From positions 62,001 to 126,000 of the forward strand of contig SHVS01000001.1 of NCBI GenBank assembly GCA_009694135.1: a DNA stretch of 64,000 nucleotides, written 5' to 3'. This document shows positions 646 through 5,878 of this stretch, piece by piece; position 1 is the stretch's first letter, and each line of letters opens with the position of its first letter. A program made the translations under genes and the position numbers. Below the pieces are notes generated by a model. The model did no database searches and had not been told where the DNA came from. It saw only the letters and a list, made by a program, of their open reading frames with translations. The stretch comes from Alphaproteobacteria bacterium (lineage in GTDB: Bacteria; Pseudomonadota; Alphaproteobacteria; UBA6615).

Positions 646-3312
<2,667 letters not shown>

Positions 3313-3394
3313 GGCGGAGTGTATATCGGGCTAGGCGCCAACCCGGCAAGGGCGGCGCGAACCTCCGCACATTCCCAGCCTTTCTAGGAGACGG

Positions 3395-3435
3395 TTATCC
3401 ATGCGATAAGGCCCGACCGCCGGTAGATACGGGCC
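3395..3435 (+). promoter_or_regulatory. Two inverted repeats in the leader of the restriction endonuclease gene
   Basis: A 5-bp-arm palindrome TTATC-CATGC-GATAA lies at 3395-3409. It is followed directly by a GGCCCG (3410-3415) / CGGGCC (3430-3435) inverted repeat. The second arm ends immediately before the AAGGAG ribosome-binding site (3436-3441) of the endonuclease gene. The first could be an operator and the second an RNA hairpin that limits restriction-gene translation. Both roles are inference. The sequence shows only the symmetry and its placement. Confidence 0.4.
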
Positions 3436-3447
3436 AAGGAGTCACGG

Positions 3448-4038
3448 ATGCCCACTCTTCACCTCGTTCCCGAGAACCTTCGGCACCTCTACCACGTTCA
3501 CGAATGGAGAAACGCCACAGGGATATTGCAAACCGCTTGCCCCGAAGAGTGGGCAGATATTGTCGCGGTCCTGCGTGACTTCAGGCTCCTGCGGTCAGAA
3601 GTCACCGCCGAAGGCGGTAACCGCTCCCCAATCTCCCGCCGACTAGATACCGCGTTCTCTCAGCGCGGCTGGGCCGAACGAAATTTCACCACAGCAATTC
3701 TTGTCGACGAACGGCGCACCTACAGTCCCACCCACGCGGTCGATTGCTTCAAAGGACGTGTTGCACTAGAAGTTGAATGGAACAACAAAGACCCGTTTTT
3801 TGATCGAGATTTGAACAACTTCCGCTTGCTCTTCGATCTCCGGGCGATTGACGTCGGCGTTATCGTGACCCGGGGATCCGAGCTTCAACAAATCTTCAAT
3901 AAGCTGGGCAAGGGAAAATCTTACGGAAGCGCTACTACACATCACGAAAAATTAGTCCCGCGCCTGGATGGCGGCGGCGGTGGAGGTTGCCCGGTCCTCG
4001 CATTCGGAATCTCCGAACGTCTCTACGTCGAGGACTAA
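3448..4038 (+). CDS. BglII/BstYI-family type II restriction endonuclease
   Basis: A 196-residue protein resembling the BglII/BstYI restriction endonuclease family, which cuts GATC-centred sites. Residues D99, E108 and E110 (in VDCFKGRVALEVEW) reproduce the D-x8-E-x-Q/E active-site spacing of BglII (D84, E93, Q95), with Glu in place of Gln at the last position. N58 (GGNRSPI) may match BglII N69. The C-terminal block with STTH-like, KLVPRL, a Gly run and CPVLAFGI is typical of the family. The AAGGAG ribosome site is 6 nt before the ATG. Base composition is clearly lower in GC than the flanking alaS and recA, which suggests horizontal gain. It converges on a methyltransferase gene with one base between stop codons, the expected partner. 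Cognate specificity cannot be read from the sequence. Confidence 0.85.
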   Translation: MPTLHLVPENLRHLYHVHEWRNATGILQTACPEEWADIVAVLRDFRLLRSEVTAEGGNRSPISRRLDTAFSQRGWAERNFTTAILVDERRTYSPTHAVDCFKGRVALEVEWNNKDPFFDRDLNNFRLLFDLRAIDVGVIVTRGSELQQIFNKLGKGKSYGSATTHHEKLVPRLDGGGGGGCPVLAFGISERLYVED

Positions 4039-4039
4039 T

Positions 4040-4669
4040 CTATCGCAAAAGCGCCGACGCCCCCGAGTTGTGGGCATAAGTCGGCCAGCTGGGCGCATAC
4101 TCGTTGTCGGCCTCGTGGCCCCAAACGCTCCACCCGCTGCGAGCGCCACGCGCAAAAAGCTCTAAATAGGGGCCGGCGCTGCACGCCTCGATCAGGGCGT
4201 ACTGCTCGTCCGGCTTGCGGGAATGCTCGCGCTTTCGGCTACTGAGATAATTGACCTGCCGACGACCGGGCGCCAGCGTGCGCGCGTTCTTGCCACGCAC
4301 GCCAAACAGAAGCATCTCGGTGACATTACGAAAATAGAACCCGACCCCACGCCCGTCCGAACCGCCGTCCCGCCGAATCTTGTGCCAGACGATATTCGTC
4401 TTGTACTGAAAGCCCCATGCCGACATGACGTTCAGCCCCTCCGCCAGCAACGCGTTGGGCACCCAAAGGTAGAGGTGCGCCGTGCCAGCGGCCACATCGC
4501 CCACCGGCAATGCCGCAATCTCCTCCACCGTCATGGTCGCATAGCGCGACAAGCGACGATGCTCCGGCGCCATCTTTCCGGTTCGATTGGCAAAGCGCCA
4601 CGGTGGGTCGGCGAGGACCGTGCCGAACCTTCTAGCGCCCGCGAACTTCAACAAATGAGACACCGGCAA
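4040..4669 (-). CDS. MT-A70-family adenine-N6 DNA methyltransferase (partner of the BglII-like endonuclease)
   Basis: A 209-residue SAM-dependent methyltransferase. The catalytic DPPW motif is at residues 21-24 (VLADPPWRF), followed by ATMTVEEIAALPV, LYLWVPNALL and a C-terminal FARGARSGWSVWGHE, all typical of the MT-A70 superfamily, which includes type II enzymes such as M.MunI. It probably methylates adenine in the site cut by the endonuclease that faces it. The first start in frame is a TTG at 4669, preceded by a GGGGG run. An upstream TGA rules out a longer form. Composition is intermediate between the endonuclease and the host genes. It is a small minimal type with no separate target-recognition domain visible. 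Confidence 0.85.
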   Translation of the reverse strand: MPVSHLLKFAGARRFGTVLADPPWRFANRTGKMAPEHRRLSRYATMTVEEIAALPVGDVAAGTAHLYLWVPNALLAEGLNVMSAWGFQYKTNIVWHKIRRDGGSDGRGVGFYFRNVTEMLLFGVRGKNARTLAPGRRQVNYLSSRKREHSRKPDEQYALIEACSAGPYLELFARGARSGWSVWGHEADNEYAPSWPTYAHNSGASALLR

Positions 4670-4720
4670 TCATCCCCCGTCGCTTCTGGCCGATTCCGAA
4701 TCGCGCGTGCGGGTTGAAGC

Positions 4721-5803
4721 CTACTCCGCCTCGGCCGGGCCCGCATCCTCGGAACCGCCCTTGGTCATGGCGCCGGCGACGGTGCCGGCATTGGCGCGGA
4801 TGCGGCGTTCGATCTCGGCCGCGACCTCCGGGTGATCCTTGAGGTACTGCTTCGAGTTCTCCCGCCCCTGGCCGATGCGTTCGGAGCCGAAGGAGAACCA
4901 GGCGCCCGCTTTCTCAACCACGCCGGCGGCGACGCCGAGGTCGATGAGTTCGCCCACCTTGGAGATGCCCTGGCCGTACATGATGTCGAACTCGACCGTG
5001 CGGAACGGCGGCGCGACCTTGTTCTTGACCACCTTGACCCGCGTCTGCGAGCCGACCACGGTCTCGCGATCCTTGATCTGGCCGATGCGGCGGATGTCGA
5101 GCCGCACCGAGGCATAGAATTTAAGCGCATTGCCGCCGGTCGTGGTCTCCGGGCTGCCGAACATCACCCCGATCTTGTGGCGAATCTGGTTGATGAAGAT
5201 CACCATGGTGTGCGACCGCGAGATCGAGCCGGTCAGCTTGCGCAGCGCTTGGCTCATCAGCCGCGCGTGCAAGCCGGGCAGCTGGTCGCCCATTTCGCCT
5301 TCAAGCTCGGAACGCGGCACCAAAGCGGCGACCGAATCGATCACCAGCACATCGATGGCGCCCGAACGCACCAGGGTGTCGGCGATTTCCAGCCCCTGCT
5401 CGCCGGTATCCGGCTGCGAGATCAGCAGGTCATCGATGTTGATGCCGAGCTTGGCGGCGTAGCCGGCGTCGAGCGCGTGCTCGGCGTCGATGAAGGCGCA
5501 AGTGCCGCCAAGCTTCTGCGCCTCGGCGATCACATGCAGCGCGAGCGTGGTCTTGCCCGAGCTTTCCGGGCCATAGATTTCCACCACCCGCCCGCGCGGC
5601 AATCCGCCGATGCCGAGCGCGATGTCGAGGCCGAGCGAGCCGGAGGAGATGGCTTGCACCTCCTGAACCGCGCCCTCGGCACCCAGGCGCATGATCGCGC
5701 CCTTGCCGAAGGACCGCTCGATCTGTCCGAGCGCCGCTTGGAGCGCCTTCTGCCGGTCGTTCATGCCATCCTTGTCGACGATCTTGAGCGCGGTAGCGGA
5801 CAT
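4721..5803 (-). CDS. recA: Recombinase RecA
   Basis: The strand-exchange and LexA co-protease filament protein of the SOS response. The 360-residue product has GPESSGKTT (Walker A), [24 protein letters not shown] and the DNA-binding loop 2 region [14 protein letters not shown], ending in an acidic tail. An in-frame ATG at 5842 would add 13 residues. I chose the ATG at 5803 because it begins the standard family N-terminus and follows AAAGGGG. An SOS box lies about 75 bp upstream. The gene ends in TAG, showing that UAG is used as a true terminator in this genome. Confidence 0.98.
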
Positions 5804-5878
5804 CGCTGGCCCCTTTATTTCACGGCGGAATCGGCTCCGCAATGCAAGCGAGTGTACCCTGTTTGTTCACGGGCGCAA

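Follow-up and report, generated by a model that had tools for sequence, protein, structure and literature searches.

The 64,000-nucleotide stretch of alphaproteobacterial DNA analysed here (assembly GCA_009694135.1, contig SHVS01000001.1, positions 62,001 to 126,000; hereafter the window) contains between its alaS and recA genes a pair of genes for a BglII/BstYI-family endonuclease and an MT-A70 family DNA methyltransferase. This locus is very probably a working type II restriction-modification (R-M) system, homologous to Nph3I of the Nitratiruptor phage NrS-3, which cuts DNA at unmethylated RGATCY and protects the host by adenine methylation. The families of both proteins, the fold of the endonuclease, its invariant catalytic residues, the conserved pairing of the two genes, their homology to an assayed pair and the depletion of RGATCY in the host genome all speak for such a system. 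It belongs to a characterised and widespread group of Nph3I-type RGATCY systems, so that its kind is not new.

Families, fold and active site

A reading made earlier from the sequence only had proposed that the first gene encodes a BglII/BstYI-like endonuclease. The protein indeed matches the Pfam family Endonuc-BglII (PF09195) across positions 1-162 of a 163-position profile (2.6e-45, 154.5 bits with a cut-off of 26), and its partner matches MT-A70 (PF05063; 2.1e-28, 99.8 bits with a cut-off of 23.9); judged by these profile comparisons, both matches lie far beyond chance. NCBIfam matched neither protein, and searches of PDB sequences with the endonuclease, both with the single sequence and with a profile, returned no significant relative. 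Its structure was therefore approached through the structure prediction that the sequence-only reading had named as a check. An AlphaFold2 model built from 28 sequences (mean predicted local distance difference test score 92.3, predicted template modelling score 0.90) found as its top PDB matches three structures of BstYI (2p0j, 1vrr and 1sdo; E ~1e-8, template modelling (TM) scores 0.63-0.68), the best of them being 2p0j (E=1.4e-8, TM 0.68). BamHI came second, with E from 4e-5, and all other matches had E>0.1. The sequence-only reading would have been refuted by a fold unlike that of BglII/BstYI; the prediction shows the expected similarity and so does not refute it.

The active-site residues D99, E108 and E110 are present at the spacing of the BglII active site, as the same reading had it. 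The spacing is D-x8-E-x-[QE], with glutamine as the last residue in BglII and BstYI and glutamate (D-x8-E-x-E) in the endonuclease of the window. In our alignment of 81 endonuclease sequences, D99, E108 and E110 are invariant (81/81), and by majority count the whole set D99, E108, V109, E110, W111, N112, N113, K114 and D115 is the same in 81 of 81 sequences. The glutamate had been read as standing in for the usual glutamine. The residue is there but is no peculiarity of this protein: because Glu110 is invariant in the alignment, glutamate at this position is, as far as the aligned sequences tell, the rule in this clade, and R.Nph3I has it too. The third active-site residue of BamHI is likewise a glutamate.

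The second protein is the compact MT-A70 methyltransferase with a DPPW motif that had been described. The catalytic motif lies at D21-P22-P23-W24 and is nearly invariant among relatives, and PADLOC assigns the protein to MTase_II, Type II methyltransferase (7.9e-95). That the enzyme is of the small type without a target-recognition domain, as had been noted, does not make it unspecific: M.Nph3I, which equals it in size and shares 70% identity with it, methylates RGATCY specifically.

Relation to Nph3I and other known systems

Both proteins of the NrS-3 pair were synthesised by Zhang et al. in 2023 (PMC10734518). R.Nph3I (NrS3_08) cut all four RGATCY sequences in vitro and was blocked completely by N6-methyladenine (6mA), M.Nph3I (NrS3_07) converted RGATCY to RG(6mA)TCY in vitro with a preference for GGATCC, and RG(6mA)TCY was found at nearly 100% in the genomes of host and phage (PMC10734518). 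The pair in the window resembles Nph3I in both components, with 58% identity over 192 aa for the endonuclease and 70% over 200 aa for the methyltransferase, in the two Pfam families and in size (195-196 aa and 209 aa, respectively). The two endonucleases also share the active-site stretch D-C-F-K ... A-L-E-x-E-W-N-N-K-D-P-F-F-D-R-D-L-N-N-F-R-L-L, glutamate included. In both systems the endonuclease gene contains one GGATCC and the methyltransferase gene lacks RGATCY altogether. Differently from the window, where the genes are convergent and chromosomal and their activity is predicted, those of Nph3I stand in tandem, endonuclease before methyltransferase, in a temperate phage. These comparisons suggest that the two pairs are probably orthologous, and homology to an RGATCY-specific system supports the proposal that the pair would be a type II R-M system with a site of the GATC type. 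The proposal that the system is undescribed is, however, wrong, since Nph3I is a close, biochemically characterised homologue from the same two families (PMC10734518).

The GenBank record of NrS-3 calls R.Nph3I (NrS3_08; L093:3995-4582) a 'methyltransferase', which, given the published assay, is apparently an annotation error (PMC10734518). A further observation concerns the position of the GGATCC sequence, which lies at codons 143-144 in the window, whereas in NrS-3 and most relatives it falls on the codons for K114-D115-P116, where RGATCC is present in 53 of 82 sequences. The recurrence of GGATCC at codon 114 is dictated largely by the conserved protein sequence, and this bears on the published suggestion that the preference of M.Nph3I for GGATCC shields the partner gene (PMC10734518).

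Other known systems are more distant or differ in one component. BstYI (RGATCY) and BglII (AGATCT) have the fold of the window endonuclease, BstYI being the best match and BglII having given PF09195 its name; identity with BstYI in the structural alignment is nevertheless only about 21%, and 6mA, which blocks R.Nph3I, does not block BstYI (PMC10734518). The A118 RMC of Acinetobacter baumannii (H0N27_10820-10830) likewise combines a BglII/BstYI-family endonuclease with m6A at RGATCY, and Dam methylation (6mA) protects DNA from it (PMC10287943). An Acinetobacter plasmid cassette of similar arrangement has a D12 (Dam-like) methyltransferase, in contrast to the MT-A70 enzyme of the window. The genes Lo5R7ANS_13/14 of the Mesorhizobium phage Lo5R7ANS are adjacent and closer to the window pair (62% and 72% identity), but stand in tandem, in a phage and beside an integrase. 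For two further RGATCY systems, M.Ath2165II of Azospirillum thiophilum (m6A) and MCA0246 of Methylococcus capsulatus, a tie to the MT-A70 family could not be made.

Distribution of related pairs

One scan of 84,980 genomes yielded 125 related stretches, of which the best 80 (54-76% identity) were kept. Their record titles name Alpha-, Beta- and Gammaproteobacteria, Firmicutes, Actinomycetota, Planctomycetes, Acidobacteria, Eremiobacterota and others. No fewer than 77 of the 80 loci have a relative of the methyltransferase adjoining the endonuclease, and in one of the three loci where no pair was seen (L069) the fetched DNA stops inside the endonuclease gene. Three gene orders occur: endonuclease before methyltransferase in tandem (49 loci), convergent (19) and methyltransferase before endonuclease in tandem (9). 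The convergent order is found mostly in the closest relatives, many of them with 0-10 bp between the stops. Annotated plasmids carry a 'BglII/BstYI family type II restriction endonuclease' beside an 'MT-A70 family methyltransferase', and a tblastn search of phages found the endonuclease in the Nitratiruptor phages NrS-2 and NrS-3 and in Mesorhizobium phage Lo5R7ANS, with the methyltransferase adjoining it in NrS-3 and Lo5R7ANS.

This conserved pairing bears on the question of whether the MT-A70 protein might be an unrelated RNA methyltransferase or an orphan enzyme that came to lie here by chance. The family does include the eukaryotic mRNA methyltransferase METTL3, and the PDB sequence matches of the protein are MT-A70/METTL3 proteins. 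Yet the same subfamily accompanies the endonuclease in nearly all loci and in three gene orders, and M.Nph3I methylates its cognate DNA site in vitro, so that we regard a chance neighbourhood as vanishingly improbable. In two Firmicutes loci, those of Cohnella (L031, 63% identity) and Romboutsia (L059, 56%), the fetched 6-kb flanks contain no MT-A70 relative. Another methyltransferase may serve these endonucleases, a role that D12-type enzymes have on the Dyadobacter and Acinetobacter plasmids (L095, L096).

The recognition site

Which GATC-type site, then, would the pair recognise? Counts of 16 RNNNNY and 16 YNNNNR palindrome classes were compared with a maximal-order Markov expectation for each sequence in three sets: 703 kb from the flanks of the 80 related loci, 432 kb sampled from the genome of the window, and 400 kb of controls from five genomes of the same family with no detected PF09195 gene. 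RGATCY is the most depleted of the 32 classes in the flanks of the related loci (418 sites vs 645 expected, observed/expected ratio (O/E) 0.65) and the second most depleted in this genome (223 vs 348, 0.64); its O/E in the controls is 0.88.

The same kind of type II system could act at another site, be it AGATCT as for BglII, GGATCC as for BamHI, or plain GATC. AGATCT or GGATCC is indeed the target of enzymes with a related fold, BamHI ranks second among the fold matches and shares the glutamate at the third active-site position, and the O/E values of this genome are lower for AGATCT (0.44) and GGATCC (0.57) than for AGATCC/GGATCT (0.77). However, the controls, which lack the gene, also show an excess depletion of these two self-complementary forms, which is therefore non-specific, whereas AGATCC/GGATCT is depleted here and in the flanks of related loci (0.74) and not in the controls (1.05). 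For plain GATC one would expect YGATCR to be affected as well, but its O/E is 0.89-0.95 across the three sets and, at 0.93 in this genome, shows much less depletion. Since, in addition, the closest assayed relative, R.Nph3I, cuts the four RGATCY variants, we consider another site of this type very unlikely. As far as such counts can indicate, the depletion favours RGATCY over AGATCT, GGATCC or GATC.

Several points weigh against the assignment of RGATCY. R.Nph3I is only 58% identical to the window endonuclease, and the outer base pair of the site varies within the BglII family (AGATCT vs RGATCY). In this genome YACGTR is slightly more depleted than RGATCY (50 sites vs 84 expected, O/E 0.59), which this R-M system does not explain. 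Within the window itself, which is too short for such a test, RGATCY is barely depleted (40 sites vs ~46 expected), and the controls are few genomes, all of other genera. An avoidance of RGATCY in the methyltransferase genes (34 sites vs 59-61 expected from synonymous shuffling) was dropped as evidence for the site because YCCGGR, RGGCCY, YACGTR and YCGCGR are more depleted there.

Taking RGATCY as the site, the endonuclease would bind as a dimer and cut double-stranded RGATCY whose adenine is unmethylated, probably at R^GATCY by analogy with BglII and BstYI. The methyltransferase would convert RGATCY in the host to RG(6mA)TCY and thereby block its partner, so that incoming DNA lacking the mark would be cut and the entry of foreign DNA limited. 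Expression and activity of this copy are inferred, as are its exact site, dimeric state and cut position.

Locus layout, integrity and acquisition

The coordinates of the locus are collected in the table below. The sequence-only reading had placed the system at 3395-4669; the end is correct, whereas position 3395 lies in the leader, 53 nt 5' of the endonuclease start codon. Upstream of this ATG the frame stays open for just 7 more codons (203 aa at most), and a Shine-Dalgarno-like AAGGAG precedes it at ~3436-3441. The TTG start of the methyltransferase comes after a GGGGG stretch. With stops at 4036-4038 and 4040-4042 the genes are convergent and separated by exactly 1 bp, as had been noted, and because of this tail-to-tail order the two are read off opposite strands and need separate promoters.

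Coordinates of the R-M genes and neighbouring features in the window
Feature	Position	Strand	Details
Endonuclease gene, BglII/BstYI family (PF09195)	3448..4038	+	196 aa, ATG start; RGATCY site predicted
MT-A70 family N6-adenine DNA methyltransferase gene	4040..4669	-	209 aa, TTG start; RG(6mA)TCY product predicted
Sole RGATCY (GGATCC) of the gene pair	3874..3879	.	Within the endonuclease gene; methyltransferase gene has none
alaS, flank outside the system	646..3312	-	Open reading frame; adjacency with recA in relatives
Left intergenic stretch, alaS (divergent) to endonuclease ATG	3313..3447	.	Sequence
Gap between recA stop and methyltransferase TTG	4670..4720	-	51 bp, from open reading frame coordinates
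recA, flank outside the system	4721..5842	-	Open reading frame; adjacency with alaS in relatives

Might the pair be a remnant, silent or in decay, for example with an endonuclease that looks intact but is inactive or not expressed, next to a methyltransferase that is still active? No match to the sigma-70 consensus was found in the intergenic stretch before the endonuclease gene, although promoter scans have little power where GC content is high. Both frames are, however, of full length without internal stops and retain the residues that are invariant in the family, and the depletion of RGATCY in this genome suggests restriction pressure, past or present. We therefore hold a remnant to be very unlikely and continue to regard the pair as most probably a working system.

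No terminator-like site was found at positions 3300-4800. The methyltransferase gene follows recA after a gap of 51 bp and shares its strand, so that some readthrough from the SOS-regulated recA into it is possible. We give very little credence to the idea that modification rises with DNA damage in this way, as an SOS-linked control of R-M, or else that the pair has drifted off RGATCY; the evidence for either is that of position only.

The lower guanine-plus-cytosine (GC) content that had been ascribed to both genes is clear in the endonuclease gene (55.5%) and mild in the methyltransferase gene (63.0%), compared with 67.6% in alaS, 66.0% in recA and 66.3% over the whole window; GC at third codon positions is 0.60 and 0.77, respectively, and 0.84 and 0.88 in the flanks. 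The claim that the pair splits alaS and recA, which are normally adjacent, is borne out: of 23 other genomes searched in the same family, 19 have alaS directly after recA, on its strand and with neither of the R-M genes in the interval. In two of the remaining four the recA stretch ends at or shortly past recA, one lacks a convincing recA match, and one has recA but no alaS in the fetched stretch. G022, which is included in these four, gave no recA match at all. Because the other genomes of the family have no PF09195 match and their methyltransferase matches are only 35-42% identical, the cassette is a lineage-specific acquisition, probably by horizontal transfer. Such a compact cassette would move horizontally and here have settled in the interval between recA and alaS. 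A search for repeats at the borders of the insert gave nothing convincing. By BLAST, none of the 80 related loci has recA or alaS beside it, and the insertion site is therefore not a shared hot spot.

Implications

With this pair, the hosts of a widespread and mobile RGATCY system increase by one lineage. For the organism itself, DNA entering the cell is predicted to need Dam-type methylation at GATC as protection. The wider family, which extends over many phyla and phages and shows three orders of the genes, may be of use for tracing how enzymes of the BglII fold came to be sensitive or insensitive to 6mA.
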